Shown: one piece after another, positions 1,166 to 51,529 of the stretch
Layout of the letters: each line of letters opens with the position of its first letter
How positions within the stretch are numbered: position 1 is the first letter of the stretch
Assembly: GCA_949152475.1 (NCBI GenBank)
Contig: OX424570.1
Coordinates: 23,184,694 to 23,248,693, forward strand
DNA from: Terebella lapidaria
Lineage: Eukaryota > Annelida > Polychaeta > Terebellida > Terebellidae
DNA: 64,000 nt
Direction of reading: 5' to 3'
The notes under the pieces: generated by a model
What the model was told of the DNA's origin: nothing
What the model saw: the letters and a program-made list of their open reading frames with translations, nothing else
Databases searched by the model: none
Program-made: the position numbers and the translations under genes

Positions 1166-2670
1166 TCTGGGAAATGTTGGTAATAGCATTGTTGGTGAAT
1201 ACTATTTTTCTGTTTAAAAACTAGACGTTTGCATACAATATATGACGAATGACATACCACATCCAACCAAAGTATGTCCAAGTGAGAATGTCATTTCACA
1301 TACAAGAGAGTGATGGAAAATGCCCATGGGAATCCGGTGATATCCTATGTAACCATAACTGTATAATGCCCGGGGTGGCTCGCTTCGAGTCTGACTCTTG
1401 ACCAACACATATATCATCTTTTACGGATATTCAGCTCCATTCTGAATGCTGACAACAAGCAGTAGGTAGAGTAAATATTTCCCATTCACCAATAAAGTAT
1501 TCCAGTTTGGTTTCAGTACTGTGGGATAAAATATTTCATATAATGATATTTACAGACGGAAACATTGAGTTTTGACAAAAAGAGAAATCATTTGGCATCT
1601 CCATTTGATTAGCTTTTGTTTGTTTGATTAACAATATGTAATGATAAGAGCTAAGAACGGACATTAAGAGAGGCAGTCTTAAGTGTCATAGTGCTTAATT
1701 GTTAATGAGAGTTTTGGATTGCATGGTACAATGAACTGTTGCAAGAAAATGAATCAGTTCCACGAATTATGATGATGTATTCACTTGACAAGCAGAAGCG
1801 TGTCGTATAAGAATGACAAAACAATTTCTCCCTGGATAGACTTTCTCATAATTACCAAAAATACTACATAATGTGCATTGATATGCGTCCTTTGGAATTA
1901 TTACTAGGTACTATATTTCCATTTACAGCTTATCAACTCAACAACACTGGGCTACGTGTTGTCAAGCAATGATGTCCGTGACCAATAAACGATTTTTCTT
2001 CCATTATTGCCTAACTCAGCTGGACTTGTCTGGTTACTTTTACGTGAACCAATAAAGCAGAGAAATAACAAACTGCAATCTTTGCGCAATGGCGTCTGAA
2101 GTAAATATTGGTGGAGTTTTATCTCTTAGGCCGTGTTGTGTTGAGACTTTGTTTAGCGTCCGCCAGATTTCGAAAATATATCAGGCAACACGGAATATTA
2201 ACACACACACAAGATTTAACACAAGCCAATATACAACGCGCAAGTCATACATTCTTGTGCACATTTGGAGTGGAAGCCGGTTCTATGGAGGCCTGAAAAA
2301 GGGCGAAAACCTTGCATAATATATTCCAAAAGGAAATATGGTGTTTTTGCGCATATATTATCCGACATTGAAGCCGATAGAAAATTGAAGAACAATTATC
2401 TAAATATATCGTTTTTACACTGGTAAATGATCGTTATTTGCTCTGTGTGTTTTTTGTGCCAAATTTCGTTGGAAAGCCTTAACACAACAATGTCTTAGAC
2501 CTATGCATGACAATGTGCACAATCAAAATATTACTGTTCAGACGTTAAAATTTTGTAAGCAACAAACGAACTGATACCAAGCTCATTGACCAGTTTGCTA
2601 ATGATAATGCAGGAACTCGATTACGTGAACTTCTAATTTGATAACTCTCCGGAATCAAACTGTCCTGCGT
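1165..2670. other. no gene seen; background repeat unit near its end
   Basis: No supported gene. About 1925-2135 is one of four diverged copies of a roughly 200-bp block (others at about 4030-4195, 8325-8520 and 16130-16300). Shared features are a start near TGTCAAGCAATGA, a GTGAACCAATAAA-like word and a closing GGAGT(T/C)CCATTTCTCAT-like stretch. Function unknown. Confidence 0.5.
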
Positions 2671-3297
2671 ATCCGTCTATCACTCACCATCACTGGGGAG
2701 GAGCTTCACATGTCTATACCGATTCTTATCCGTCTATCACCCACCATCACTGGGGAGGAGCTTCACATGCATATACCGATTCTTATCCGTCTATCACTCA
2801 CCATCACTGGGGAGGAGCTTCACATGCGTATACCGATTCTTATCCGTCTATCACCCACCATCACTAGGGAGGAGCTTCACATGCGTATACCGATTCTTAT
2901 CCGTCTATCACTCACCATCACTGGGGAGGATCTTCACATGCATATGCCAATTCTTATCCGTCTATCACCCACCATCACTGGGGAGGAGCTTCACATGCGT
3001 ATACCGATTCTTATCCGTCTATCACTCACCATCACTGGGGAGGAGCTTCACATGCGTATACCGATTCTTACCCGTCTATCACTCACCATCACTGGGGAGG
3101 ATCTTCACATGCGTATACCGATTCTTATCCGTCTATCACTCACCATCACTGGAGAGGAGCTTCACATGCGTATACCGATTCTTACCCGTCTATCACTCAC
3201 CATCACTGGGGAGGATCTTCACATGCGTATACCGATTCTTATCCGTCTATCACTCACCATCACTGGGGAGGAGCTTCACATGCGTATACCGATTCTT
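2671..3297 (+). repeat. 57-bp minisatellite, 11 copies
   Basis: Eleven head-to-tail units begin exactly every 57 bases from 2671 to 3241, each starting ATCCGTCTATCAC and ending near ACCGATTCTT. Because 57 is a multiple of 3, one frame stays open for 239 codons (repeat RLSLTITGEELHMRIPILI, 19 residues), but the peptide has no known domain and the open frame follows from the period. Variants alternate (CTCACC/CCCACC at the 5' end, GAGCTTC/GATCTTC and CTTATC/CTTACC at the 3' end), which suggests expansion by two-unit blocks. Confidence 0.95.
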
Positions 3298-6082
3298 ATC
3301 CGCCATTTTTTGTTCAGTTACCTATTATGTTTAGTTAGTCGCACTTTCCAGAGATGATTATGGTGAGTGTTTTCCTTGCTCAATATTTGCTACTTTGTTG
3401 TGTTGTATTTAGAGAGTGTGACAAGGTTTAAGAGTATTGTCATCTGGGGTTCAGCTCGGTACCAATCTGTCTAGGCAAGAACAAGCTCTTCCCTGTGACC
3501 ATGGGACAAAATCACAGTAAAACTGAATGTATCAATGCAAGTGATATATCAACAACCATATATTACAGTAAGAGTTAATTAATAGTCCCGTTAATACATG
3601 ATACCCCTACTTCCGTATTCACTAGACAAGCAAAGAATGTCAAATATTGCTCCAAACCTTGGTATTTTGTGGGTTTTCTCTGCGATTGCAAACGGGGCGT
3701 GGCCTGTTGCTATGTCGTCGGGACAAAGAATTGTTTATGCAGTACTGAATTTTGGATAGCATGACACAGAGCATTGCTGAAAAATCTTCAGTATTTCTGT
3801 AGATAATTTGTAGGAACAATCATGAGCAGGAACATTTTTGAAGATTCATTAAACGGCAGGATATTTCTTGTTGAATGAACCAGCTCATAATAATTTACCA
3901 TGAATAACATTATTGAGGAACATGATTTCACGGCTTGTGGATTCACTGAATTGGCCTTAGATGTGTTTTTTTTTTCAACCTATTATCATCATTGGTTTTT
4001 ATCAAATCCATTGTATTACCACCTCCACAAAATACAATGTGACGTCAAGCAATGATATTCCTGACCAAAAACTGTTCTTTTCCATTAACGCCTAACACCA
4101 TTGAGAGTTGTCTGGTCACTGTTACATGAACCAATAAAACTTTGCACGTCGGCGTCCGAAGTCAATACTGGCGGAGTTCCATTTCTCATTATTAAATCGT
4201 ATTTTTCTTATGTGTAGAGCATGAAATCCTACTCAATTTATCGAATGAGACAATTCTGGTTTCAAACAGAGCATCAGGCAGCACAGACAGGCCATAATGT
4301 GACAGTTGAATAATATCCGAAGTAAATGAAAGGTTGAAAAATGATTACAGCAATTTACAAAAATACGATTTTGATGATGAGGAAAAACATTGGTAGAACC
4401 GGGATAAAGCCAGAACATTCGCTTACATCCAAAGCGACGCTGGCGTCCTTGTGAATTTATGTGAATATTCATCTTTTATCGTGTTTTAACCAAGCTATCT
4501 TCGTTTTTGACTGACTGATTTCAAGACTAAACTCAATCCTTTTCAAATATTGTTATATTTTATGAATACAGACTTTCAGCAGTAAACACCAGATCATACA
4601 TTAAATTTTCAAAATGCGCCGGTGTTACCGAGATGAATGTTTGTTGTGTATTTGTGTAGTGCATTTGACTGACAATATTTCTTCATGGTTGCATTGACAT
4701 GTGTGTGTCCAGTGCGACTGAGTGTTTGTTGGAAGAACTGGTCTGCCTGCCGGAGTGATACATTTGGAGTGAGAGAGACCCACTAGATTTGTCCTAAACT
4801 ATAACATGTGTATTATTTAATGGCATGGTCAGTCTACCTGTTTCTACTGCATAATTCAAGACGCAGTATATCATATAGAAGCCACCAGAACTATTGCCTT
4901 CACGGTGTGACATTTCATTTTCGTTACATTATTTTGTCAAGATTCGTTCTCCATAGTTCATTTCATTTTCATTTTCAACAAAGAAAATGTTTTCCCGTCT
5001 ACATTCGTTAAACATGGACAAAGTATTCCCTCATTCATTGCCCCGAGCAATCCACAGCATAACATGTTTGAGCACATAAATGGGACGTGTTGAGGATCTG
5101 ATTATTCCCACAATATCTGCTCCATTTAATCATTATTCCACGTTTATGGGATTCTCTAGGTATTGAAACATTTATCACTCGCCTTGCGTCACTGACTTAA
5201 TCCTGTTAAGATTCGTTGGGACGTCGCTATATTGTCTCTTGTCTGTGAGAGGATCAACTATGGCTGAGTTAATATATAACTTTCAGGTGTATTGCTGACT
5301 CTCAATCGTCATAACAGAGGCTGTGCTTCGAAAAAAAAACCCAATTGATTATGCATGAATCTCAACCAAGTTTCGACTTCTATATTTTGGTACATTGTTG
5401 TTCTTCTATTATTCAGCATTTTCTTCCAGACATTCGTCGGAAACCAATATATCAACATCCTATGGGAGACAAACCGCATGGAGCACAATTTGACTTGAAT
5501 TCTGAGAAAAAAACCTTTTGTGATAATGACAAGACTTTGAGAGGTACACCTATGTGTTGCCGTCTGAGAATAGACAAAATGTAAGGCATACACTTACACC
5601 TCTGAAACACAGGACTTATAGATCCCCATACATCATTCTAGCTACATTATATCATCGGTCAATATGTCGATCAATTGAAAGGGAAAAACATGTAACTATT
5701 GATCTTCATGACAATATGAAAACATTGCATTCACAACAATAATAGCCGGGGAACGAGTTTGTTATGGAACGTAATTTTTCGACCCATTTCCACTCGTCAA
5801 AGGGAAAGAGAACGGAATCACATTGTATTGCAGTTTGGAATTGTAACGTAATGCTTTAACAATGCAGAAATGTGGTGTTATGCCACAACGATACCCTAAC
5901 TAATCTATACCACACATTCACGTGCTTCAATGATGACACTGACATATATATCTCCTGTTTAACTGTTATTACGTGTGTGCTTTCATTTGTATCATATTCA
6001 TATATGTTAAGTGATAGTTGTTTCTTGTATCTGTTATGCACGTGTTGTGAACGAAATAACCCATGACAAGTGTGACAAGTTC
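3298..6082. other. no gene seen; diverged background repeats
   Basis: No supported gene. About 4030-4195 is the second copy of the block at 1925-2135, and about 5150-5300 pairs with 300-540. Open frames on both strands are short and lack recognisable domains. Confidence 0.5.
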
Positions 6083-7442: not shown

Positions 7443-9074
7443 ATGTGATGGTTAATATATATTTGGGAAAAATAAAAATAGTTTACTAATTCCATCTCGG
7501 CTTTATTTCATCCATTTTATGCATGCAACAACATTGTGCCTAAATACTTTTGACTATAGTACATGTACATGGTTTAACCTAAGTACAAGAAATGAATTTG
7601 CTATTGCTAGTGTTGTTTTTTCCAGTGTAAACAAACACCTGAATTTTGCCGTTCTTTGTTTAATGTTCTTGACCTGCCCATTGAATTACATATATGAAGA
7701 CAGGATATATATGGGATATGGGGCAGGAAATGCTCACTCTTCCTGGAATATGCGATTCCGTGTCAACCCGTCCCAAATTATGTAGAAAAAATGCGTTCAC
7801 AGTAGTGCATCAGATGGTATCCACTTTCGCAATCAAGGCAGGATCCGGTGACGAGTGGTCAAACGACAACTTTGCATCTTGACAAATCTTCCTAAATTGC
7901 CTCCATACGTGATCTACATACCAGAAACTTCTTGTAGAAATTTCTGGATCAGATGTTCCCATCACTTGTATTGTAATTTGCGCAGTAGTGGACAAAATGT
8001 GCATATTACGGAATTGATTCCAGCAGACTGGACTGGAAGTGTTTATGAGGTTTTAATGAGAATAAACTATACTCTTGGCCTCAGTTGGGTTCGGTGTAAC
8101 CCCAACCTGAAATGGGGGTAGATTATAAACTCGCATATAAATTTTGAACACCATCCCACAATAAACTGCATAAATAAAGTATGACCAAAGTTTGTATTTA
8201 TTGATGGTGCATTTCGACAAATGTCATTGAAAGTATTAACTAGGAAAACGTTCCTGTGTGGGATGTAGTACAGCTAGTTTCGTATATTATACCACTGGCA
8301 TTTCTGGATGACCTTTGCACAGGTTATTACCTAACAACTCTGGGTTAGTGCTGTCAAGGCATTGACGTCCGCTAACAAAAAACACTCTTATCGTTCATTA
8401 TTGGCTAAACCAGTTAGGTGTTATGTGGTCATTTTACGTGAACTAATAAAACGCAGAATGTCAATCCGCATGAACATTGCATCCACAGTGATTACCAGAG
8501 GAGTCCCATTTCTAATTTTATCCATTAAGTTTTAGTGTTTCTTGGCCACAGGAAATGGTGTAAGTTGATGAAGTAACAACGCAAGTTCTCCCAGAAACCC
8601 ACGTATAGTTCTGGTGAGTGCAGAGCTTTGTCAGTATTAGTTGTTATACTACATCCAAGGGTAATAAATATATACTGACTGTCAAAATACTTGTAATACT
8701 ACTCATTAGTAAAAAAACATGGTGTTGGCTTGAGTAAAAAAACTACGTGTGTGACACAAAAACACTCAAAGAAATGAAATAGTGGTACAATACACAATAA
8801 TAGCCATCAAGAGTGGAATACTTGTGATTGGTTTGATAATTGAGGTGACTTTTTCTAACATTGAGACAGTCTTTTTACTAAATATGTGATATTTGTGTGA
8901 AATTCCCATAACATCGCCCACCTTTGTTGACATGGTCGTGCTTGAGTGGAGTTGTACGGTACCTGTACACTATACACAGGCCACGTTCGCTGGTCATCGT
9001 CACGCTTCAGTGATCTAAGTCCTAGTGCTCGGTATCGTCCACTAACTAGACAGTTCGGTTGCACAGTATAGAAT

Positions 9075-10373
9075 ATGAATACCCGCAAGATGTCCAAGAC
9101 GACTGATACAGACGACGCCCTGATGGGGAAAATTGCAAAGCTACTAGATGAGAAACTTCAACCAATAAACGAATCTATACAGGAAATATCGACTAAAGTA
9201 GACAGAGCATTGAATGCAGCAAACGAAGCAGTCGCTTCAGCAAATAAAGCAGTTGCATCAGCAAACGAAGCCCAGTCTAAGGCTAATAGCGCCATGAAAA
9301 TGACAACTGACCTGGCAAATCGTGTGGACCAGCTCGAAGATGATCTGAAACACAGCCAAGTACAACAGCGTCAACTCTATGAACAGCTTCTGGGTGTAGA
9401 ATCCTACAGCCGTAGGAACAACCTTGTCTTTGAAGGCATAAAAGAAGGCAAAGACACCATGCTGCGCCAGGAGATGCTCCAAACGATCACAAACCTGGGA
9501 ATTGACATTTCTGACAGCAAGCTCGTGGCATGTCACAGAATACCGTCAATTTTGGCTGGGGTCCAGAAGAGAACCACCCCCCGACCAGTTATAATTAAGT
9601 TCCTCAGATATGAAGATAGAAAAGCAGTCTGGAACCTCAGACGTAGTTGCCAACGTGGTGTACGTATCAAGGAGGACTTCCCGACGGTGATAGAGCAACG
9701 ACGTAGGACCATGTGGCCATATCTGCGAGCTGCCTACCAAGGAGACCCAGCGAACCCAAGCGCACCAGTATCAGCATACATGAGGCTCGACAAACTCCAC
9801 TTAAATAACCAGACGTTTGCTCATGACACTCTGGATAAACTGCCAGAATATATCAAAGACCGCGTCTTGAACCCACCCTGTACGAAACAGTCGGCCAGCG
9901 TTACAGTCTTCTTTCATAAAGACAGCCCCTTGTCGAACTTTCACCCTTGTGACTTTGAGGTTGATGGCTGCAGCTTTTCTTGTGTCGAACAATACATATC
10001 ATACAAGAAGGCAGATATCTTCAACGCCGAGGATATTGCCGGAGAGGTGCTCAAAATGGAAGATCCTCTAGAGATGAAACAGCGAGTGAAGCGGCTTCCA
10101 CGCTACAAAGATGACGTGTGGGAAAGAGAGGCTCCTAAGATCCTCCTGAAAGGGTTATCGGCCAAATTCACGCAGTGCAGTGCTATGAAACAGGAGCTCC
10201 TGGCCACTGACGATTCTACTCTGGGGGAAGCAAGCCCTAGCGACCTACTTTTTGGTATCGGTATCTCCTTGTACAGTCCAAATGTCTTGGAAGTTGACAA
10301 ATGGCGAGGGAAGAACTTACAGGGACGAACTCTGATGTCGGTCCGCGATGGGTTACGACAAGGCACTCTTTAG
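9075..10373 (+). CDS. LINE ORF1 protein with C-terminal NADAR (YbiA-like) domain
   Basis: 432 residues, intact. Residues 20-105 are a heptad-rich, Ala/Asn/Glu-rich coiled coil (likely trimerisation). Residues 109-200 look like the L1-type ORF1p RNA-recognition domain, with ESYSRRNNLVFEGI at 109-122 and VIIKFLRYEDRKAVW at 172-186. Residues 201-225 (DFP..IEQRRRTMWP) match the following C-terminal domain. These parts normally bind LINE RNA as a chaperone. After a linker, residues 277-428 match NADAR/YbiA: FFHKDSPLSNFHPCDFEVDG, then VEQYISYKKA, LLKGLSAKF, DLLFGIGI and the closing DKWRGKNLQGRTLM. E305 and D390 match conserved active-site positions of YbiA, but the usual Trp after the Asp is Phe here. 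In bacteria and viruses NADAR proteins act on N-glycosidic bonds linked to ADP-ribose or riboflavin intermediates; a role for it in a LINE is inference. The start could be the Met at 9090. Confidence 0.88.
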   Translation: MNTRKMSKTTDTDDALMGKIAKLLDEKLQPINESIQEISTKVDRALNAANEAVASANKAVASANEAQSKANSAMKMTTDLANRVDQLEDDLKHSQVQQRQLYEQLLGVESYSRRNNLVFEGIKEGKDTMLRQEMLQTITNLGIDISDSKLVACHRIPSILAGVQKRTTPRPVIIKFLRYEDRKAVWNLRRSCQRGVRIKEDFPTVIEQRRRTMWPYLRAAYQGDPANPSAPVSAYMRLDKLHLNNQTFAHDTLDKLPEYIKDRVLNPPCTKQSASVTVFFHKDSPLSNFHPCDFEVDGCSFSCVEQYISYKKADIFNAEDIAGEVLKMEDPLEMKQRVKRLPRYKDDVWEREAPKILLKGLSAKFTQCSAMKQELLATDDSTLGEASPSDLLFGIGISLYSPNVLEVDKWRGKNLQGRTLMSVRDGLRQGTL

Positions 10374-11157
10374 ACCTCTCGGTGGAGACTCCGATGCACA
10401 TTACAATGCCCACTTCATATCTGTCCTATACATGTAAAGTGACACTTTGATGCATATGTTATTGTCGCAGGTATATATATAGATAGTATTGCAAGCGAGT
10501 TTCGATACTTTATTTTCACAAAAATCATTTTTACTTCGATTATGTGTATACTGGTGTCATATGCATACTTAATAAGGTAAGGCATTGCTATATTGATTTA
10601 GAGATTGTTTGATATATATATGTATATGCATCGGAGATATTATGTGTATTATGATGAATTCTACATGATAATATAATATATAGTGTACATGTAAGATGAC
10701 TGATTAATATGCACCCAACACGTGCGCCGTAATATACATAAATGCTATATAACTCATTCTTGACAAATGCCCATGTTTTCTATCACCAATTATGATGATG
10801 GATTGTCGTACTATCTAACAACTCGATCACAAAATGTATGGTGAATGACTGAATGATAAAATGAGCTAAACTTTATATGATAGCCCTGATTCTATCGTGA
10901 ATGTACCAAGAAACAACAATTATATCAACATACCAATTGAGTGGAATTCTTGTGTCATTACTCGTCACATTGAATCATGTCATTTTCATTTGTTTCTTTT
11001 ATTCTGTTCGTTTATGGCTGTATCTACACTGGGACAAATGCCTGTCGGTGCGGTGTGTGTGAACAACATGATACAGGAATTTTGATGCGGCTAACAAAAA
11101 ATATGTCATGGATGATTAAACTTGGGCATGAAATAAATAAAATCTGCGTCTGTACAA
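10374..11157 (+). other. LINE inter-ORF spacer
   Basis: About 780 bases, AT-rich, with no open frame of note and no repeat structure. It separates ORF1 from ORF2 within the same element, so ORF2 would need reinitiation or internal entry; nothing in the sequence shows which. Confidence 0.6.
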
Positions 11158-14100
11158 TTGCATCTTTGCTCATACAATTTGAAGATGGAAAATGATGCAC
11201 GTGACTCGAGTTCTGATGAAGATTTCCCAGGTTCATCCGATTGTGTGGAAGATTATCGACTGTCGATCTTGAATATCGATAACCAATACTGTGATCTAAG
11301 TGAGATAAATGGGAATTTGATGTCTTTCCCTAGCGCAAAATACTGTGCCATCCATATAAATATTCAAAGTCTGCCTTCCAAACATATAGAGTTATGTGAT
11401 ATGATAGCACAATTGAGAGAAAATGGAGTGGTCGTGCACTTTATCATGCTCTGCGAGACATTCCTGACTGATATAAATGCGAGTATGTTTCCCATCACCG
11501 GATATAATTTTGTTCATGTTAGTAGGTCTGTCCTCAAGAGGGGAGGAGTTGCAATCTATTTACTCAATGAATTCAATTACAGAGTGAGACACGATCTTTC
11601 TATTAATATTGAGGGAGAATTCGAGAGCTTGACTCTAGAAATAGATTCTAAACACGGTAAACCAAACCTCATTATTTCTGAAATATACCGTGTACCAAAC
11701 ACTAACGAACGGACTTCAGTCGAACGTTATGACCAGATGGTCACTGCAATATGCAATACTAATAATGACGTATTGGTTGGCACCGACCAAAACTTCGACT
11801 ATATGAAAGTTAACATGCATCAAAACTCGTCTGATCTGTTGAATGTCTTTTTTCAAGCTGGTGTGCTCCCAACAATAAAGCGACCGACCCGGGTTACGCA
11901 TACAAGTGCAACAGTTATTGATAATTTGTACATCAAATGCCATGGATATAAGAATGTGGACTCGCGTATTATATTATCACACATGTCGGACCATTTCCCT
12001 ATCATAGCTTGCATGGGCAAACGCCTACTGATAAAGGCCCCCTGACGTTTACCCACAGGCCTTTCAATCCGGCAAATATCGCTAATTTATCAAACGCTCT
12101 GAGCGCTCATCCTTGGGGAGAAACAATGTTTAACAAAGGGGTGAGTGAAAGTTATAATTATTTTATTACACACTTCAACAGACTTTTAGACAAGAACATC
12201 CCCTTCAAAACAACTTCCATACCATATAATTCCATTATAAGGGAACCATGGATGACACCAGGTCTTATGAAAGCATCTCGAAAACGCGATATATTATATA
12301 GAAAATATCTTTCGAAGGCGAAAACTAGTAATGTTTATGTAAAATATATTAAATATCGAAATGCCTATGGAACCATTAGACGCAATGCGAAAAAAATATA
12401 TTACACTGAACTCTTAGAACAATACCAAACGGATATACGCAAGACGTGGAAAGTTTTGAATACAATAACTGGGAGGGCCCAGGCCAAGCCCACCATACCA
12501 GACAGTTTTGAACTAGACGGCGAGAAGATATCTGATACGACCAAAATTGCTAACGAGTTTTGCACATATTTTAGCAGCATCGGCAAGACATTTGCAGAAG
12601 CGATACCAAAATCGACCAAATCACCTGAGCAGTATATGCGCATGTCCGCCACGAAATCGACAATGTTTCTTTCACCAACATATCCTGACGAAATTTATAA
12701 AATTATCAAATCATTTAAAACTAAAAAAAGCTCAGGTGATGATGGCATCAGTATGCATCTACTCAGGCAATTGGGTGAGTCTTGCTGTGTTCCCATATCT
12801 ATAATTGTTAACAAGTCGCTGGAGGAAGGCATAGTCCCCGATGCTATGAAACTAGCAAAGGTTATACCTATTTACAAAGCAAAAGCAAAAGACTCTTTCA
12901 ACAATTATAGACCCATTTCTCTGTTATCTAACATATCAAAAGTAATTGAGAAAGTGGTACACAATAGGCTTTATTCATTTCTGACGAAGTTCGATATATT
13001 AAACGATCACCAATATGGGTTCAGACCCAAGCGCTCTACAATTGATGCAATCACTGAATTTACCTCGAATGTCCTGCCTTCACTGGACGAAAAGGGCAGG
13101 TGCTTATCTGTGTTCCTGGACCTCTCCAAGGCGTTTGATACCATAAACCATAACATATTACTGAAGAAACTTGAATATTATGGTATACGAGGGAACGCCT
13201 TGGGGTGGTTCAGGAGTTACCTTGACCAGAGAAGGCAGTATGTCTCTTTCCGAGGAGTCAATTCGAATATACAAAACGTAGAATATGGTGTGCCTCAGGG
13301 ATCGGTGCTAGGCCCGCTACTCTTCATATTATATACAAATGATATTCCAGATTCTCTAAGCCACTCTAAAACTGTTTTATTTGCTGACGACACGACTGTA
13401 TACCTTTTCCTGGTGAAAACTTACAGAGTATGTATACATCAATAAACTCCGATCTAACTGTTCTAAATGACTGGTTCATGGCCAATCAACTGTCTGTCAA
13501 CCCGACAAAGACAAAATACATCCTTTTCTCAACACGTGGAAACTATAATACTATCTCACACGAATTATATATCAACAATGAAAAACTAGAAAGGGTCGAA
13601 TCAACTAAATTTTTGGGCGTCATTATAGACCAAAATCTCAATTGGCAGCAACACATAGAACATTGCCGGAAAAAAATATCGAAAGGAATATATGCCATCA
13701 ACATGTCGAAACACATACTGTCCCAAAACCACTTGAAAATATTATATTTTAGTTTGATACATCCTTATCTACTGTATGGAATTAGACTCTGGGGCAATAC
13801 CTACCATAAATATATTAATAAACTTGAAATTTTGCAAAAAAAGGCTATTCGGGCCATATGCGGGGCTAAATATAATGACCCTACATCGTCACTTTTCAAA
13901 AACTTGAGGATAACTAAAATCAGGGACATGTACAAATTAAATACATCTCTCTTTATGTATGACTTTGTCAACATAATGCTACCAAGTCCCTTATTACAAA
14001 TATTCAGCCTTCATGGAAGTACACACACCCATGATACTAGGCATAGCACCGATCCCAAACCACCAATTGCGAATACCGATGTCATGAAACGTAGCTACCT

Positions 14101-14209
14101 ATATACGGGCCCATCTGATTGGATGAACCTGGACAAAAACATCAAAACTTCGAGATCAAAAACGATTTTTAAGAAAAAAATGATGCGGAATTTTATTTCT
14201 AAATACTGA
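11158..14209 (+). pseudogene. LINE ORF2: AP endonuclease + reverse transcriptase, frameshifted
   Basis: The first piece (11158-12045) is an APE-type endonuclease: IHINIQSL, LCETFLTD (catalytic Glu), GGVAIYL, VGTDQNFDYMK, RPTRVTHTSATVIDNLYI and SDHFPI (catalytic His). The second (12009-13445) is the reverse transcriptase: YRPISLLSNISKVIEK, YGFRPKRSTIDAI, FLDLSKAFDTINH, GVPQGSVLGPLLF and FADDTTVYL (catalytic Asp pair). The third (13430-14209) continues with NDWFMANQLSVN and TKFLGVIID, the thumb region. The pieces lie in different frames: one single-base shift near 12017 (an A lost in the AAAC run before CGCCT) and one near 13405. Without them the protein would be about 1010 residues, normal for the superfamily. 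The first Met could be at 11158 or 11185. Confidence 0.92.
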
Positions 14210-14475
14210 ACATTATGACAACATGCTAGGTTATACGTATCGATACCATATATGTGTGTGTTATGATTGCATGTGTCGAATACTGATTTTAAATATCTAA
14301 TCGAATATGATTAAACCCAAAAAAGGCGAAATATTCCAGTGTGGATTCAACCATTTAAGGTGATCACCTCCCCGCTCTGCGAGGTTACAGACACTGTCTT
14401 GCTGATCACCTGGGATATGTATATATATATGTAATGTAATGTATTCCTTTCTGTTCAGCATATCCCGAATAAAAA

Positions 14476-14511
14476 TATCTATCTATCTATCTATCTATCC
14501 ATCCATCTATC
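14476..14511 (+). repeat. (ATCT)n LINE tail
   Basis: ATCT repeated about seven times, with two ATCC variants at the end, directly after AATAAAAAT. It serves as the 3' tail of the LINE, as in many CR1-like elements. Confidence 0.85.
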
Positions 14512-15597: not shown

Positions 15598-16071
15598 ATG
15601 GCGCCCCGTTCGTGCCACCAAAAAGGGAAGTTATTTTTTTATTTATCTCATACGTATGAAATAAAAAGTCATATGTAGGAGATACTAACACATACGTATG
15701 AAATAAAAAGTCATACGTAGGAGATACTAACACATACGTATGAAATAAAAAGTCATACGTAGGAGATACTAACACATACGTATGAGATACTAAGTCATAC
15801 GTAGGAGAAACTATGACATATGTAGGAGATACTAAGTCATACGTATGAGAAACTAAGTCATATTTAGGAGATACTATGTCATACGTAGGAGATACTATGA
15901 CATACTCATATGTATGAGATACTATCGCATACGTATGACTTATTTTCTCATACGTATGACTTTTTATCTCATATGTATGACTTTTTATTTCATATGTATG
16001 ACTTAGTAACTCATACGTATGAGTTAGAAAAAAAAAAATTCTCTTTTTTGTGGCACGAACGGGGCGCCATA
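15598..16071. mobile_element. foldback (hairpin) element with internal tandem array and 7-bp target duplication
   Basis: Terminal inverted repeats ATGGCGCCCCGTTCGTGCCA (left, from 15598) and its complement (right, to 16070) enclose about 15 short units built on the self-complementary word TCATACGTATGA, mostly about 30 bases apart. The left half and right half are complementary, so the 474 bases can fold into one long hairpin. CTTTTGT occurs directly before (15591-15597) and after (16072-16078) the element, a clear target-site duplication. No coding capacity: non-autonomous. A 7-8 bp duplication with GG-starting ends would suit Merlin- or hAT-like mobilisation, but the family is not known to me. 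Confidence 0.88.
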
Positions 16072-23612: not shown

Positions 23613-23915
23613 GTATTTATATTACTTATATTGGAACTATATACTACTTATATTTATATTATAAGTAGTATTTATATTACTTATATTGGAATTTATAAGT
23701 ATAAGTATTTATATTACTTATAAGTAAGTATTTATTTATTTTATAGTATTTATATTTTATAGTATTTATATTACTTATATTGGAATTTATAAGTATAAGT
23801 ATTTATATTACTTATAAGTAAGTATTTAAGTATTTATTTATTTAGTATTTATAGTACTTATATAAGTATTTATATTACTTATATTGGAACTATATACTAT
23901 ATTACTTATATTGAA
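23610..23915. repeat. AT-rich minisatellite beside PLE
   Basis: Irregular repeats of TATTTATATTACTTATATTGGAA-like words cut to about 12-40 bases. The unit ACTTATATTGGA is also the first sequence of the adjoining truncated PLE (compare 40619 in another copy), so the array may have grown from the truncation point. Confidence 0.8.
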
Positions 23916-25280
23916 CTTATATTGGATCCCAAAGTTGCACAAAAATCCACACAAACAAAGATATATTTCAGGTTCAGCATCATGTTCTACCAAAGCCCTT
24001 TCTAAAATATTAACTACTATATTGTCTAAAATTAAACAGGGTCTCCAAAAGTACTCTGAAACCATCTATTCTAGAAGTGGTATAAACCAAATGTGGATAT
24101 TAAAAAATTCCAAATCTTTATTGGAATATCTACATGCGCACACACTTTCAAAAGTAACGTCTATCAAAACATTTGATTTCTCCACTTTGTACACAACTAT
24201 ACCTCATTCTGAACTGAAATCTCAGCTTAAAAAACTAATCAATAATTCATTTTTCTCTAAAAAGGGACAACGTCGGTACCACTATATTGTAGTTAAATAT
24301 AATACCGCTTATTTTGTTAAAGGCGACTCTGATGCCCCATACAAATATACTGAAATAGATGTGGTAAATATGGTTAATTTTCTGATTGATAATATTTTTG
24401 TGGAATTTGGTGGTTGAATATTTCAACAAACTATTGGTATTCCCATGGGTACAAACTGTGCACCATTATTGGCAGACCTGTTTTTATACTCATATGAATC
24501 AGATTTTATCCAACATTTACAAAGAGGAGGTTCTAAGAAACTAACATGTAATTTTAATTTCACTTTCCGATACATAGATGATGTATTGTCGCTAAATAAT
24601 CCCAAGTTTGGTGATTATTTGGATGTCATATATCCTAAGGAACTTGAAATTAAGGATACTACAGAATCCGCTAATTTTTCCAACTATCTAGACCTGAGGT
24701 TGGAGATTGATAATGATTCTAACCTGTCAACTAGATTATATGACAAACGTGATGATTTCAATTTTTCCATAGTCAATTTCCCTTTTCTAAGCAGCAACAT
24801 TCCTATGTCACCGGCATATGGTGTGTTTGTTTCTCAACTTATACGCTATTCCAGAGCTAGTTGCAAATATGAGGACTTTGTCTATCGAAGTGCCCAGCTA
24901 GTCTCTAAACTGCTACGACAAGGATATGTTTTACCAAGACTTATCGCTGCGTTTAAGAAATTCTATGGACGTCATCATGATCTGGTTGATAAATACAGCA
25001 AATCCATGTCTGCCATGCAACTAGATCTATTTTCATGTTAATTTTGGGGAATTCATGACGGGTGCCACTAGTGGGGCAGGAAATGCTCACTCTTTCCGGA
25101 ACACCTGATTTCACCTCCTGATGGCCATTTACGGGGGTTCATGAGTTTCCCTGTCATTTTTGTTTTCTCTCACTTCATATGCCTGATATGACTTTCTGTC
25201 CCCGGACTATGAGATTGGATAACGGACCCTGTTTTGTTTGCTCGGAATACTTGATACTGGGTATTGATTCCACGTCTATT
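23911..25280 (+). mobile_element. Penelope-like retroelement, copy 1 (5'-truncated)
   Basis: Encodes the reverse transcriptase core from the finger region onward: TFDFSTLYTTIPHSELKSQL (first catalytic Asp block), GIPMGTNCAPLLADLFLYSY and FRYIDDVLSL (catalytic Asp pair), then SPAYGVFVSQLIRYSRASCK. The PLE-type order and the preceding PKLHKNPHKQ motif identify the family. The reading ends at 25041 after LDLFSC with no GIY-YIG endonuclease behind it. A 240-bp 3' UTR follows, ending ACTGGGTATTGATTCCACG. The reading frame is interrupted once. Truncated at the 5' end, as expected of target-primed insertion. Confidence 0.88.
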
Positions 25281-26612: not shown

Positions 26613-28140
26613 AGTACACGTTGATTTCAACAATTATAGTCCGTCAGAGTTTAAACGCACATTTTATGCCAGTTTTTTTTATATAAACGACCTAAGTGTA
26701 TCCATCAAACCCGAATGTGAACAAATTCCGAAAATTACCCTTAAAATCCACTTCGAGTTCCTTTTTCCCAGCTATATTCTGAAAAAGAATAAAATCTGTG
26801 TTATACAGTGGTGTGCGTGGAACTGTTGGTCTATTTCGCACTTTTGTGCTTTGTACACATCTGCGTGCGATGGATACACCTCTTGTATGTACGCGTGAAC
26901 CGCCTGTTCAAATGAGCAAAATTTCCCACTAGACTGGTTGTAGTCATAATATTTGTGGTGAGTACGTCTCATTCATTCAATTCCACATGTTCAATGTGAA
27001 ATATAGTTTTCCCAAAAAATATTGCGTGCTTTCGAAGGCAGTTGCCTTAATGATGTCTTGCAAAATTTGAATTCAAAAGATTCATTTTCACAAGGTATAT
27101 TGATACTGCTAAATTTACAATGTACACGGGATCATAGGATGTTTCCGTTACAATATCTGTTTGGCATTAACACGCTTGAATGGTTCCGGCAATCATTGTC
27201 CGTAATTTCGTTTTGAAAGCCTTCACTTCACTAGACCTGATGGGGACATCAAATATGATGATCCTCCGCTCTGCTCAGTACATCAAAAGGCAAGTCGAGC
27301 GAGATAACCAGACATTATTGATGCCTAAGGTAAAAATTTGGAAGAGATAGTTGATGCATGATGTAATATTTTTCATGCCAAATTTATTTGAGTTTGAATA
27401 GTTTGAAATGACAAACGTGATGATTTCAATTTTTCCATAGTCAATTTCCCTTTTCTAAGCAGCAACATTCCTATGTCACCGGCATATGGTGTGTTTGTTT
27501 CTCAACTTATACGCTATTCCAGAGCTAGTTGCAAATATGAGGACTTTGTCTATCGAAGTGCCCAGCTAGTCTCTAAACTGCTACGACAAGGATATGTTTT
27601 ACCAAGACTTATCGCTGCGTTTAAGAAATTCTATGGACGTCATCATGATCTGGTTGATAAATACAGCAAATCCATGTCTGCCATGCAACTAGATCTATTT
27701 TCATGTTAATTTTGGGGAATTCATGACGGGTGCCACTAGTGGGGCAGGAAATGCTCACTCTTTCCGGAACACCTGATTTCACCTCCTGATGGCCATTTAC
27801 GGGGGTTCATGAGTTTCCCTGTCATTTTTGTTTTCTCTCACTTCGTATGCCTGATATGACTTTCTGTCCCCGGACTATGAGATTGGATAACGGACCCTGT
27901 TTTGTTTGCTCGGAATACTTGATACTGGGTATTGATTCCACGTCTATCTGGATATTGGCCAAAATACTACATTCGTGTGTATATAAGCATGTGCATATTG
28001 TGTATATAAGCGGAGATTCGGCTTTGAGCTGATCACATCAAAACTTTTTGAGATGTCCATCCTTGTTCTCAAATTTTATACAGGGTTCCCGAATCATTTC
28101 TAAGTTTCCCAACTTCAGATACTTCGTGAATAGCAATTGA
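26613..28140 (+). repeat. duplicated segment, copy A (interrupted by PLE copy 2)
   Basis: 26613-27404 and 27948-28140 together correspond to 28363-29347. The two copies agree at about nine bases in ten or better, including CCGCCTGTTCAAATGAGCAA and GCGGAGATTCGGCTTTGAGC. Copy A is split by a PLE fragment that copy B lacks. Confidence 0.88.
27405..27947 (+). mobile_element. Penelope-like retroelement, copy 2 (3' part only)
   Basis: Almost identical to bases 24736-25279 of copy 1: it starts inside the reverse transcriptase (ACAAACGTGATGATTTC) and runs through the C-terminal 78 codons (27473-27709) and the 3' UTR to CACGTCTAT. It sits between TTTGAGTTTGAATAG and GATATTGGCC, which are joined in copy B near 29150, giving an empty site. 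Confidence 0.9.
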
Positions 28141-30944: not shown

Positions 30945-31145
30945 CAGGAAATGTTCACTCTTTCTGGAACACCTGATTTCACCGCCTAAAGGCCATTCTT
31001 GGGGGTTCATGAGTTTCCCTGTAATTTTGTTTTCTCTCACTTCGTATGCCTGATATGACTTTCTGTCCCCGGACTATCAGATTGGATAACGGACCCTGTT
31101 TTGTTTGCTCGGAATACTTAATACTGGGTATTGATTCTGCGTCTT
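30945..31145 (+). mobile_element. Penelope-like retroelement, copy 3 (3' UTR fragment)
   Basis: About 200 bases matching only the 3' UTR of copies 1, 2 and 4 (CAGGAAATG-TCACTCTTTC to ACTGGGTATTGATTC). A short, dead-on-arrival insertion, somewhat more diverged than copies 1 and 2. Confidence 0.85.
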
Positions 31146-32879
31146 TTAATTGATTATTTTGTTCTGCAGCAGCTTGTTTTTTTTAATGGAAATACTTTTC
31201 GCATCCAAAGAGAAACTATGTCTTGAGCAAATCGATATCTTGTTCCATCGAAATTTGATATATTATCATAGTTTAAACGCTAAAAGCACACTATTTTTGT
31301 ATTCAATAATTTTACCGGTCCTAGTTTCATAACTCTCATTCGTACACTTCCCAAACAATTCACCCAATTGTATTCAGCAGGGCTTCCTGATATTTTTCCC
31401 AGGGATAAGATGACCTTATGGTTCCAACTGGGAGAGATGTTTGCAGAAAGCTCAACTTTTTCATATGGACACCAAAGATCCACATCACGTTTTACAACTG
31501 AGGATGCTAATATTTTATGCAGTGTTGCATTCCGCCAAGACATTAACAGATAGCATATATAGTAAATGACGAATGATACTTGATACTTACTTGCTCAACA
31601 AACAGTACACAAGCTGGACTGTTTCTGATTGAACTTCATCTAGATATACACCCCGGTACACATAAAAAATACTATAATTAAATGGGAGAAAGAAAACACT
31701 TTTAACCTACTACCAATACAGAACATTAACCGAAACGATTCTGGAATAGAAGCGAACCCAGAAAAAATCTGTATGAAGTCACAGAAAAGTCCTTAGAAAA
31801 ATGAATGTTGGAAAATTAGAACGAGTCTGAACCCACTTCAACCATCTTAAAGCATAGTTGGTTTTAGATGTTTCAATTGGTCCTTGAGATTTGGTCATAA
31901 TTAATCAGATTACATGACCGGGGAGATAAATGTAAGCTGGTTAATTTTCTGACGTATGCATGAGAGTGAAGGAGAGAGGAATGTCAAATATACACTATAC
32001 TTTTCTCACTATACTTTGCTTCAGAGTTCTTGAGATCTCGATATGTCCACAAGTTTTGTATCCAGTGGCCGAAATAGAGGGATCGGAAGGGCACAACTTT
32101 CTGTATTGGTTCCACAGTTTTTCACCGAGGTCAAACATCAAAAGTAATTTATGCTTGGATAAGACATGTATTGTGAACCAACAAATAGGTTAAAAATGCT
32201 GCATTCACAGTGGATCATGGGATATATCTGTTAAGGTATCCTCCTGGCCATAACAAGCTTTAAAAAATACCGGACAATAATTGCCGGTAATTGTGTGCTG
32301 AAAGCCTTCACTCGACCTCGTTCCCCAGGGATCGTAACATCGTTATTCCCTCGCTCTGCTCATTACATCAAAGGGGAAGTCAATAGAGATAACTGGATAA
32401 TATTGATCTGGGCCCTCGAAAAGGGTAAGAAAAAAACTCGAAGAACTAGAAGATGTCTGATGTCATCTTTCCATGCCAAATGTATGGCCATTTGGATTGG
32501 TCGGGAGATTTGTCGAAAGAGTACAGTCAGCTTGTACCTTATGCAACGTGTAAAACAGAATATCTGAGCAGAGAGTTGACTATGAAGTTATCACATCAAA
32601 CAATTCTTAAAGGTCTGTCATTGTTCCAAAACCCTTTGCAGTCACGTTACATCAAAGGGGAATGAACACTGCACATAGAAAACTGCAATGTACAATATCT
32701 TCAGCTTCCCAACAAATCAAAGCAAGGAGCCACAACTGTCTCAAACATGTACTTCTAATAACTTTGTTCCCCATATTTAGTCTTCTCCCTTTTCCATCGT
32801 GGTGTTGTAGCCAATGTGATACAATGGGTGGGGTTATCTCTCGAGATATATGTAAATAGGGTGTGTTCAAGCTATCATT
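31146..32879. other. no gene seen
   Basis: No supported gene. About 32290-32390 resembles 27220-27310 (AAAGCCTTCACT and CGCTCTGCTCA(G/T)TACATCAAA), a further diverged copy of that unit. Confidence 0.45.
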
Positions 32880-39399: not shown

Positions 39400-41930
39400 A
39401 AGAATCCAATTATCAATGTAATGAATTTATTTACATCATTTAAACGTAGGAAACGAAGCCATGGACAACGACATTATAATCGACCATCTATTCATAATAT
39501 TTCCTTTGATGGTCTACTCGAAACATTGAAACAAACACTAGGCCTACACTATGTTCGCACTAAAATATTTGCAATACCTCATGTTAAACTTAAAGAACTA
39601 GAAGACCAATGCCCTACCCACTATATCAGAAATACCAATACCTATGAATTTCGTCTGTATTCCATTATCATGGATATTGTTTATCATCGGCTACATGTTT
39701 AAAGCCAACACAGACTTCCGAATATGTACCACCCAAACGGTCTTTTCTGAAGATAAAATTTGCCAATAAAGGTATTGATGCAATTATCATCAGTAATATA
39801 TTACATCATAAGTCTGTTCAGTCCCAGGTACCATCATACTTCACTGACACGGCCGATCCATCTATATCCTACTCATATACCAAATTTGTTGCTTCCAAGA
39901 TATTCAACTACAAACAAACAATGAATGATTTGGATATTGATGATCTCTTACATAACCCAGCCTCTTGCACTTGCATTAACTCTCCGTTCATACACGATCC
40001 CGTTGGGCATGTTATTTCAGGCGACCTCAATATAGTGGAGAATGAATCATTGAAAGACATTTTGTCCAAAGGTCCAGAATATAGAGAGCCCACGTCGTTT
40101 TCATGGAGATACAATTTTAAGTTAATCATGGATGCAGTTGAGGAGCATGCCAGGAAATATGGACAAAGCGAGAAAAGGCAGAAACTGATTCTCTGTCAGA
40201 ATGGGTCAAACAGATTAAGTCATTGGTAAACAAACGCATTAATGTTTTGTCAAAGTCAGTTAGTACTAAATATAGCTCTGTCTTCAATGATCCCATGGTT
40301 ACTAATAGTTTGTTGAAACTTCAAGAAAGGTTCGTCATTGTCCCTGCAGATAAAGCTTCTAATAATGTTGATTTTGTTTGTAAAGCATACTATATACAGT
40401 GCCTGTTTGACGAACTTGGTATTGCCAACAATACTAATTCCAATATAGTACATACCAAGCCATTACCGTGCCCAAACAGGATATCTTATAAATTTAAGTA
40501 TCAATCTATTACCACCAATACAATATCAAATCATTATCATCCAATACATTATCAAATCACACGTCTGTATTGCATTCGTTTGGAATTACTACCTCATGAA
40601 AACATCCTAATCTACCAAACTTATATTGGATCCCAAAGTTGCACAAAAGTCCACACAAACAAAGATATATTTCAGGTTCAGCATCATGTTCTACCAAAGC
40701 CCTGTCTAAAATATTAACTGTTATATTGTCTAAAATAAAACAGGGTCTCCAAAAGTACTCTGAAACCATCTATTCTAGAAGTGGTATAAACCAAATGTGG
40801 ATATTAAAAAATTCCAAATCTTTATTGGAATATCTACATGCTCACACACTTTCAAAAGAAACGTCTATCAAAACATTTGATTTCTCCACTTTGTACACAA
40901 CTATACCTCATTCTGAACTGAAGTCTCAGCTTAAAAAAGTAATCAAAAATTCATTTTTCTCTGAAAAGGGACAACGTCGTTACCACTATATTATAATTAA
41001 ATATAATACCGCTTATTTTGTTAAAGGCGACTCTGATGTCCCATACAAATATACTGAAATAGATGTGGTAAATATGGTTAATTTTCTGATTGATAATATT
41101 TTTGTGGAATTCGGTGGTCGAATATTTCAACAAACTCTTGGTATTCCCATGGGTACAAACTGTGCACCATTATTGGCAGACCTGTATTTATACTCATATG
41201 AATCAGATTTTATCCAACATTTACAACGAGGAGGTTCTAAGAAACTAACATGTAATTTTAATTTCACTTTCCGATACATAGATGATGTATTGTCACTAAA
41301 TATTCCCAAGTTTGGTGACAGACTCCGCTAATTTTTCCAACTATCTAGACCTGAGGTTGGAGATTGATAATGATTCTAACCTGTCAACTCGATTATATGA
41401 CAAACGTGATGATTTTAATTTTTCCATAGTCAATTTCCCTTTTCTGAGCAGCAACATTCCTATGTCACCGGCATATGGTGTGTTTGTTTCTCAACTTATA
41501 TGCTATTCCAGAGCTAGTTGCAAATATGAGGACTTTGTCTATCGAAGTGCCCAGCTAGTCTCTAAACTGCAGCGACAAGGATATGTTATACCAAGACTTA
41601 TAGCTGCGTTTAAGAAATTCTATGGACGTCATCATGATTTGGTTGATAAATACACCAAATCAATGTCTGCCATGCAACTAGATCTATTTTCATGTTAATT
41701 TTGGGGAATTCATGACGGGTGCCACTAGTGGGGCAGGAAATGCTCAATCTTTCCGGAACACCTGATTTCACCTCCTCATGGCCATTTTTGGGGGTTCCTG
41801 AGTTTTCCTGTCATTTTTGTTTTCTCTCACTGCCTGATATGACGTTCTGTCACCGGACTATGAGATTGGATAACGGACCCTGTTTTGTTTGCTCGGAATA
41901 CTTAATACTGGGTATTGATTCCACGCCTAT
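39400..41930 (+). mobile_element. Penelope-like retroelement, copy 4 (longest)
   Basis: The only copy that keeps the N-terminal part: RRKRSHGQRH near the start, then NSPFIHDPVGHVISGDLNIV and KGPEYREP (about 39980-40090), VPADKASNN (finger motif), PKSPHKQ-like, FDFSTLYTTIPH, GIPMGTNCAPLLADLYLYSY, YIDDVLSL, SPAYGVFVSQLICYSRASCK and the closing LDLFSC at 41698. The 3' UTR ends at 41930 like copies 1-3. The coding region is broken at several places, so the copy is inactive. No endonuclease domain is visible on the C-terminal side; an N-terminal one would lie before 39421, where I see none. A copy of the short dispersed repeat (40497) sits inside the finger region. Confidence 0.87.
40497..40526 (+). 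repeat. short dispersed repeat, copy 3 (inside PLE copy 4)
   Basis: TAAGTATCAATCTATTACCA followed by CCAATACA interrupts sequence that is continuous in PLE copy 5 (about 62898-62915), together with about 35 bases of extra local repeats. Confidence 0.65.
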
Positions 41931-42129
41931 CCAAACTAGTACCCATTCTATTGCCTCAATAAAGCGTGTATAAGGAAGTTTACTCATGAACAATCAACGA
42001 TTTCCAATCAACAATCACCTGTTGGTGTCAATCAAGTTATACTGTAATAAATTCAGCCCGAAAACACTGAATTATTGGGGTTTCATGCCACGCTTGTTTG
42101 GACAGTGAGATAAAGGATGATATGAAACA

Positions 42130-50145: not shown

Positions 50146-51529
50146 GTGCTGGTGTTGGGGCGTATGGTTGGAACGATTGGAGTGGCATTTGTTGTCCAAT
50201 TTGAGCCTGGAAGATTATGTTCTGTATTTGATTTTTGACTATGGCTTTGGATCTATCATTCGTGATGGTTCTGATCTCTCCAGCTATATACTTTCCGAAG
50301 AGTTCTTCTTGATCATCGACCGGCTTCATTGTTTCTTCCGTACTACAGTCATCAACTTTTTGCACTAGGCCCTATATCAGTGAAAGTTCTTCTTCTTCCA
50401 GTTTGCGTTTTTTCGATGCGGTTGGGGCAAGCTTCTTCATCGTCCTTTTGACTGCCTTCGTTATGTTTTTTCCTGGAGTCTCCTCCCCTTCCTCTGCTGA
50501 CGCCACAGAACTTGGACATGATGAATCATTCCCCTGCGAGATAGACAAAAATATGTTAGATGTCTATTTGGTGTCTATTTACGTAACGAATCATAAAATG
50601 GTACAAGCTAATCTTTGTACATTACTTATCATAGTATTATATTCCGAACCCGACAGTATTGTACGTTTTAATTTTATTCAATTTTATGTAGACTTTTACA
50701 GGTTCCGTCAACCAAAGAAGAATGGGTTATTGTTGCTGACGAATTTGAACGCAAGTGGAACTACCCACATTGCATTGATGCTTTGGACGGAAAGCACATC
50801 TTACTTAAGCAGCCAGCAAACAGTGGATCAACATTTTATAATTATTAACACACGTTCAGTGTGGTTCTCATGGCATTAGTGGATGAGAATTATAATTTTC
50901 TATATGTCGACGTGGGATGTAATGGCAGGGTTTCGGACGGGGGAGTTTTCAACAGCTGCACTCTAAGTAGGTTCCTCGAGGAAGGAAATCTGGACATCCC
51001 TCCACCATCCCCAGTCAAGTTCAATGGTGAGACGAAAAATCTGCCTTACGTATTCGTGGGAGATGAAGCATTTCCGCTCAGAGAAAACCTTCTGAAACCC
51101 TTTCCACACCGAAACCTTGACCCAGACAAGAGGATCTACAACTACAGGACATCTAGATCCAGGAGAGTCGTTGAAAACGCTTTTGGGATCTTGTCGAACA
51201 GGTTCCGAGTGTTCCAGAGCCCTATTCCGTTACCACCAGGCAAGGCTGTACTGGTTGTACTGGCAGCGTGCACCTTACATAGCTTTCTCAGGAAGAGCAG
51301 GGCAGTTCAAGAAGAAGATGAAACCCCAGCAAGAGTCGGAACATCCAAATCAACTGCTCAAACTGGGATCCAGCAAGTACATGATCAACACACAGGAAAC
51401 ACTTCAACGAAAGCCAAACGTGTTCGCGATGATTTCTGTCTGTACTTCAACTCGCCCGAAGGTTCCGTCGAATGGCAAGACAGTATGATTTAGACATTTG
51501 ACATCTAAAAAAACCAGGATGACTGTTTG

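Follow-up and report, generated by a model that had tools for sequence, protein, structure and literature searches.

The locus at positions 9075 to 10373 (+ strand) of a 64,000-nucleotide stretch of the Terebella lapidaria genome, here called the window, raises the question of whether a LINE has joined a NADAR domain to its ORF1 protein (ORF1p) and, if so, what that domain would do for the element. The original prediction had placed a NADAR domain behind an L1-type ORF1p in a single open frame, and had suggested that the retrotransposon may thereby counter ADP-ribosylation by its host. The analysis below addresses, in turn, the fusion itself, the state of its ADP-ribose site, the element to which it belongs, and its possible role.

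A NADAR domain fused to an ORF1 protein

The frame at 9075-10373 is open over 432 codons, as had been claimed, whereas the remaining two forward frames contain 23 and 31 stops across the same interval. The order within the 432-residue product is a coiled coil, an RRM of the L1 ORF1p type by its modeled fold, and a NADAR domain, all in one frame.

Several lines of evidence support the assignment of the NADAR domain (residues 282 to 428; 9918-10358, + strand). First, the Pfam profile PF08719 (NADAR) matched these residues with an E value of 7.8e-34 and a score of 117.7 bits (curated cut-off, 35.1), and the match spanned profile positions 9 to 163 of 163. The C-terminal part searched alone (residues 273 to 432), the part in which the domain had been predicted, gave an E value of 8.2e-35; the predicted interval, 9897-10373, fits the domain plus a linker, and the NADAR motifs that had been quoted are present in the sequence. 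Second, matches to PDB sequences were found for a Phytophthora nicotianae NADAR (8bau; E 5e-16) and for YbiA (2b3w; E 4.6e-4). Third, an AlphaFold2 model of ORF1, computed from an alignment of ORF1 and 39 viral NADARs, had ten-residue pLDDT means of 93 to 98 over residues 281 to 432, except for 81 to 86 over residues 381 to 410, the least certain stretch of the domain, which contains E385, D390, and F393. Finally, a Foldseek search of this model against the PDB gave two matches at E values up to 0.001, and these were again 8bau (2.6e-9) and 2b3w (9.5e-7). Against viral models there were 45 matches at the same threshold; most of the named ones were NADARs from phages and giant viruses, and a few RNA-virus polyproteins ranked lower. 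By profile, fold, and catalytic residues, the domain belongs to the NADAR superfamily (YbiA family) despite F393, and the fusion is real and well folded.

Identity to phage and viral NADARs was 29 to 40% among the matches listed, and each of the 677 phage-genome records detected by tblastn at E values up to 1e-3 was less than 60% identical. In IMG/VR, single queries with the NADAR domain, the ORF1 core, and the reverse transcriptase (RT) returned 3, 2, and 2 pattern matches, respectively, none of which was confirmed; likewise, the 18 pattern matches of the full ORF1 in the genome contig collection included no relatives. Two patterns, around EASP.D and KW.G.N, fetched 199 confirmed relatives from IMG/VR, of which 80 were examined; 39 of those 80 entered the structure alignment and 5 a later alignment.

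The part in front of the NADAR domain begins with a coiled coil (residues 9 to 114; 9099-9416, + strand), modeled as a single long helix with ten-residue pLDDT means of 86 to 96 over residues 11 to 100 and 78 over residues 101 to 110. A Pfam search found an alanine-zipper match in it (E 8.1e-7). The middle part (residues 88 to 272; 185 residues) was modeled separately from an alignment that included two distant LINE ORF1s, those of L089 and L087 (contigs described below), the latter added on pattern alone. The resulting model has a beta-alpha-beta-beta-alpha-beta arrangement with ten-residue means of 81 to 88, except for 53 over one loop and lower values at the edges; the N-terminal helix scored 55 to 66, and the last ∼65 residues mostly had a pLDDT of less than 50. 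Of the 10 Foldseek matches at E values up to 0.001, 9 were human LINE-1 ORF1p chains, including ranks 1 to 8. This places an RRM at about residues 115 to 201 (9417-9677, + strand), with ESYSRRNNLVFEGI at its start. Similarity to the L089 ORF1 (25% identity over 101 amino acids; single-comparison E 4e-7) is consistent with this, and no significant pairwise similarity was found between the L087 ORF1 and the core of the window ORF1.

An L1-type CTD may follow at about residues 202 to 265 (9678-9869, + strand). Its position fits, and the Foldseek alignments to 2yko, 2ykp, and 2ykq cover 139 to 152 columns of the 185 residues and so extend past the RRM; the model of this region, mostly below a pLDDT of 50, is of low confidence. 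The claim of an L1-type ORF1p thus stood as to fold and not as to family model. PF02994, the L1 ORF1 model, had no match in the window ORF1 at E values up to 10, nor in the L087 and L089 ORF1s, and a Pfam search of residues 96 to 272 returned no match. When the three ORF1 cores were combined into a profile, eight weak matches resulted, the best three of which were L1 ORF1p (E 0.13 to 0.23). The core is accordingly classed as an L1-type ORF1p on its predicted fold rather than on a family model. A coiled coil followed by one RRM, the arrangement that characterizes type II ORF1p, was found in the window ORF1 by the models and Foldseek.

The two halves of the fusion are similar in composition. The GC content is 47.2% in the core and 49.0% in the NADAR domain, and the best split found by change-point analysis within ORF1 was weak and located elsewhere than the border between them. 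This similarity without a clear break fits an old fusion. A NADAR domain carried as a useless passenger after a chance join would accord with the single copy seen in the 64-kb window. However, the domain is full length, without stops or frameshifts, and the same architecture has been reported in several oyster LINE families (PMC12477816), which makes such a passenger very improbable.

The ADP-ribose site

Contacts to ADP-ribose in 8bau (PMC11543638) were mapped onto ORF1 by hand via the PDB sequence alignment, in which the chain position equals the residue number plus 2. Eight of the 11 side chains that touch ADP-ribose are retained. These are, in 8bau and the window, respectively, E43 and E305, K50 and K312, K75 and K335, Y84 and Y344, D86 and D346, W89 and W349, E125 and E385, and D130 and D390. 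Thus the Glu and Lys of the VEQY...K motif, the family Glu (EASP), and the following Asp are all present, and the prediction that the conserved Glu and Asp are kept held for E305, E385, and D390. The three changed residues are R79 (K339), R93 (A353), and W133 (F393), and G78, which makes a backbone contact to adenine, corresponds to V338.

Comparison with the 80 IMG/VR relatives examined showed how unusual these changes are. At the W133 site, Trp was found in 80 of 80, so the Trp of the D..WG motif, predicted to be Phe, is indeed replaced by F393, a departure at one site. At the R79 site, R was found in 78 and K in 2, and at the G78 site, G was found in 73 and S in 7. The sites of E305, K312, W349, and W393 (F393 here) fall outside both fetch patterns, whereas E385 and D390 are covered by the patterns, so that the agreement of the relatives there is in part built in by the selection.

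Published work bears on several of these residues. The Glu at the E125 site is described as a mark of the YbiA family (PMC11125620). Hydrolysis by the Escherichia coli C7 NADAR depends on its Lys equivalent to K312 and on the acid equivalent to E385; at the E305 site, replacing Glu with Gln kills activity, whereas replacing it with Ala matters little in vitro (PMC11543638). The nematode protein SNA-3 is impaired in function when E251, D343, and W346 are changed together (PMC9303266); judged by their motifs and spacing, these residues correspond to E305, D390, and F393. Judged from its residues, the domain appears to keep those for ribose binding and catalysis and to have weaker phosphate contacts, and it is probably catalytically active.

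Alternatively, the domain may be a binding module that no longer catalyzes: it would read ADP-ribose on RNA, chromatin, or host proteins and guide the RNP to sites of PARP activity, just as PHD domains in the ORF1s of other LINEs may read chromatin. The changes of R79 to K, R93 to A, and W133 to F in the hand-mapped comparison would suit it. PHD, for which a targeting role has been suggested, is common in the ORF1s of L2 and CR1 elements (PMC4120745), and PARP1 is purified together with human L1 ORF2p, to a lesser extent when EN or RT carries mutations (PMC5821459). However, E305, K312, W349, E385, and D390 are retained, among them the Lys and acid on which the E. coli enzyme depends and the Glu whose change to Gln abolishes its hydrolysis, and we therefore regard a pure binding module as unlikely.

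The surrounding element

The features around ORF1 are those of a LINE read on the + strand. At about 8915 the GC content climbs from 36% to 48%, which marks the approximate start of a probable 5′ untranslated region (8915-9074). ORF1 is followed by an AT-rich gap of 811 bases (10374-11184; 33.5% GC) with no open stretch longer than 71 codons in any of six frames, and then by an ORF2 that runs from 11185 to 14209 across three frames, whereas ORF1 is intact. The first piece of ORF2 (11185-12045, + strand) holds the N terminus and a probable AP-type endonuclease, as suggested by a PF14529 match (E 5e-4; 20.4 bits, under the curated cut-off of 27.4) and by 23 to 25% identity to contigs L090, L088, and L092; PDB sequences gave no meaningful match to it and one chance match (E 0.34). 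The second piece, in another frame (12009-13445, + strand), is the RT (PF00078; E 2.1e-32), which is also similar to L088 and L090. The third, in the third frame (13430-14209, + strand), is the C-terminal part, with 34% identity to L090 and 32% to L088. A (TATC)n tail of 9 units (14476-14511, + strand), detected as a tandem repeat, is the probable 3′ end of the element. In the 3′ region ahead of this tail, TGATCACCT occurs at about 14361 and 14403 (14360-14412).

The contigs used for comparison, L087 to L094, were the eight in the genome contig collection that contained the RT motif. They are filed under prokaryotes (the sources include a Bathymodiolus gill symbiont and Aureispira and archaeon MAGs, with L088 and L090 both from an Aureispira MAG) and encode LINE-type proteins; most likely they are eukaryotic DNA within prokaryote-filed assemblies. 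As an exact degenerate pattern, the RT motif had no match in IMG/VR. An ORF1 upstream of ORF2 was seen in three of the eight contigs (L087, L089, and L092) among frames of 120 amino acids or more; the contigs are short, and the ORF1s of the remaining five may lie beyond their ends. The window ORF1 had no match in the eight contigs at E values up to 0.01. Consistent with this, the ORF1s of L087, L089, and L092 gave no sign of a NADAR domain by comparison with the window ORF1, nor did those of L087 and L089 by Pfam. The upstream frame of L092 appears by eye to be of the PHD and zinc-knuckle type, and L089 and L093 contain a DVE.NPGP peptide that presumably resembles 2A sequences.

The RT indicates the lineage of ORF2. 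The RT core is 46% identical to that of L090 and 43% to that of L088, compared to 28% for human L1, the one representative of the L1 group. In a ten-row tree, the window and seven other rows with RTs of the GVPQGSVLGPLLF type were split from human L1 and L089 at 99/99; this tree was midpoint rooted with long branches flagged, its rows carry no clade names, and no Tx1 sequence was included. L089 has two RT stretches, of which the tree took the long GVRQGC one and not the fragment with the searched motif. We take the motif GVPQGSVLGPLLF of the window ORF2 to mark the Jockey/CR1/L2 group. The RT thus appears CR1/L2/Jockey-like and not L1-like, with the group named by motif. The Tx1 clade belongs to the L1 group, and the NADAR-ORF1 architecture, known from Tx1 elements as discussed below, probably spans more than one LINE lineage.

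Whether ORF1-NADAR and this ORF2 form one element has to be weighed, because ORF1 could instead be a separate unit, namely, a Tx1-type ORF1, a retrocopy, or a LINE-derived host gene, about which the RT lineage would say nothing. Several observations point that way. First, the gap is odd: the distance between the stop-to-stop frames of ORF1 and ORF2 (the latter from 11137) is 764 in the window compared to −78, 4, and 3 in L087, L089, and L092, respectively. Second, change-points at about 8915 (36 to 48%) and at 10414 (49 to 33%) delimit a block of 48 to 49% GC, compared to 33 to 40% downstream. Third, ORF1 is intact while ORF2 is spread over three frames. Finally, no target-site duplication was found in a search for exact shared words; no word exceeded the longest of 100 shuffles, and one 10-base word in the gap equaled that maximum.

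However, two of these observations lose force on comparison. The GC contrast does not prove a chimera: all three of the other LINEs also have a higher GC content in ORF1 than in ORF2, though by less (1, 8, and 3 points in L087, L089, and L092, respectively, versus 10 in the window). Nor does the intactness of ORF1 prove domestication, because at the breakage rate of ORF2 the probability of finding ORF1 unbroken is 0.42. In addition, the two frames lie on the same strand in the usual order, and the 5′ end of ORF2 is uncut. We therefore consider it rather improbable that ORF1-NADAR is a separate unit. The ORF2 at 11185-14209 is likely the partner of ORF1-NADAR in one element, the bond between them being positional. 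Exchange of ORF1s between lineages has been argued, with evidence in the CR1 and L2 lineages, and a 5′-truncated insertion into another element is a described route by which an ORF2 acquires a foreign ORF1 (PMC4120745); such an insertion would likewise account for the unusual gap seen here.

No second copy of the ORF1/ORF2 element was found within the 64-kb window, and no Rfam match at the gathering score. The window otherwise resembles eukaryotic DNA rich in transposable elements. Stretches at 23914-25279, 40571-41931, and 62917-63540 form one family, 94 to 97% alike in DNA, with an RT of the GIPMGTNCAPLLADLFLYSYE type, further pieces of which lie at 27408-27948 and 30945-31149. By its motif we take this family to be a Penelope-like element; its Pfam match to RVT_1 (E 0.008) was below the cut-off. 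A DDE_Tnp_4 transposase piece (E 7e-23), presumably Harbinger-like, lies at 50849-51493 (+ strand). At 2670-3302 there is a 57-base tandem repeat of eleven copies with a 94% match, in which two forward frames are fully open and the third mostly so, as a unit divisible by three can allow. Finally, a 21-base satellite at 15647-16023 contains CATACGTATG-like words and also matches its own reverse strand.

Possible role and known systems

How might a NADAR domain serve a LINE? L1-like ORF1ps trimerize and are believed to assemble into RNPs with their own RNA (PMC3905857). An L1-type ORF1p such as this one would self-assemble via its coiled coil and bind RNA through the RRM and probably the CTD, so that in coating the element RNA it would place many C-terminal NADAR copies on the RNP. 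These may cleave the N-glycosidic bonds that attach ADP-ribose, most likely to guanines of the element RNA or first-strand cDNA, and removal of ADP-ribose would protect the template from host ADP-ribosyltransferases. As a whole, this working model of a LINE ORF1p-NADAR that de-ADP-ribosylates the guanines of its element and guards the template is a reasonable proposal that we hold tentatively.

Several published findings make such a role conceivable. NADARs, including one eukaryotic enzyme, hydrolyze guanine-ADP-ribose, and their action on marks made by pierisin or CARP-1 is assumed by the authors (PMC11543638). Possible writers of the mark would be PARPs, of which PARP1 is found with human L1 ORF2p (PMC5821459), or the guanine-N2 enzymes of clams, six edible species of which have an activity that ADP-ribosylates guanine N2 of DNA (PMC11209040). 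In animal RNA viruses, NADAR or Macro domains occur in polyproteins with the polymerase, and their proposed targets are ADP-ribose adducts made by the host (PMC9503650).

Other findings argue against the model. The substitutions R79K, R93A, W133F, and G78V are at the ADP-ribose site, where model confidence was also lowest around E385, D390, and F393. In human cells, PCNA-bound nuclear ORF2p was not appreciably associated with ORF1p (PMC5821459), and L1 was not inhibited by PARP1 overexpression (PMC4441479). Because of these last two results, a role at the cytoplasmic RNP or early cDNA is preferred over one at the insertion site. Specialists describe what NADARs do in animals as unclear (PMC11125620).

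The domain might also act on small molecules, such as NAD-derived signals, ADP-ribose derivatives, or reactive riboflavin intermediates, instead of nucleic acid. NADARs of bacteria and plants cleave intermediates of the riboflavin pathway (PMC11543638, PMC9303266), and those of phages have been argued to act mostly on small ADP-ribose derivatives (PMC9503650). However, an RNA-coating fusion partner would make little sense for a diffusible substrate, and macromolecular adducts have been argued to be the targets of RNA-virus NADARs (PMC9503650); a small-molecule substrate therefore seems quite improbable. An enzyme kept on an RNA-coating protein suggests that its substrate is the nucleic acid or RNP of the element itself. 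That the substrate is ADP-ribose on nucleic acid and the role counter-defense is plausible but somewhat less likely than not, and the overall interpretation that had been offered for this locus is partly supported. A broader proposal, that invertebrate LINEs armed their ORF1p with a guanine de-ADP-ribosylase more than once, to remove ADP-ribose added to their RNA or cDNA by host PARPs or CARP-1/pierisin-like enzymes that modify guanine N2, is speculative and unlikely on present grounds. If it is true, nucleic-acid ADP-ribosylation would be a defense against retrotransposons in animals, and the LINE-borne NADAR a counter-defense. If the NADAR-ORF1 architecture holds in a second LINE lineage, this would mean repeated capture or spread by ORF1 exchange.

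Comparison with known systems shows which features are shared. With type II ORF1p of CR1 and L2 LINEs, the window element has in common the coiled coil and the single RRM, and possibly also their CTD and a downstream ORF2 of the CR1/L2 type; those proteins have no extra domain or a PHD, whereas the window ORF1p has a NADAR domain, which the main text describing them does not mention (PMC4120745). The type IV ORF1ps likewise carry an enzyme domain on a coiled-coil protein and occur across several element clades, but their enzyme is an SGNH esterase and the surveyed proteins are without an RRM, whereas here enzyme and RRM occur together (PMC3905857). The P. nicotianae NADAR (8bau) has the same fold and the ADP-ribose contacts compared above, but it is termed stand-alone (PMC11125620), whereas the window NADAR is fused to an ORF1p. 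In the invertebrate RNA viruses, too, a mobile RNA-based agent has a NADAR attached to its own proteins, although within a polyprotein and not a LINE ORF1 (PMC9503650).

The closest systems are other retrotransposons. Gypsy elements of Ectocarpus have also captured a NADAR domain, but these are LTR elements with the NADAR in Pol, and outside Ectocarpus their NADARs match almost only bacterial proteins according to the authors (PMC12477816). In the same report (Genome Biology 2025), Repbase searches with these NADARs led to several Tx1 LINE families of the Pacific oyster, Crassostrea gigas, whose ORF1 proteins appear to be YbiA-family NADAR domains and for which a role in processing RNA intermediates was suggested. 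A LINE ORF1-NADAR fusion is thus a kind already in print, not a one-off, and less new than thought; among the open-licence papers listed, PMC12477816 was the one report of a NADAR in a LINE that was found. The oyster elements, known by description only, share with the window element a LINE ORF1 protein bearing a YbiA-family NADAR and differ in having an RT of the Tx1 clade, whereas the RT neighboring the window ORF1 appears to be of the CR1/L2/Jockey type. What appears to be new here is a NADAR-ORF1 followed by an ORF2 with a CR1/L2/Jockey-like RT.
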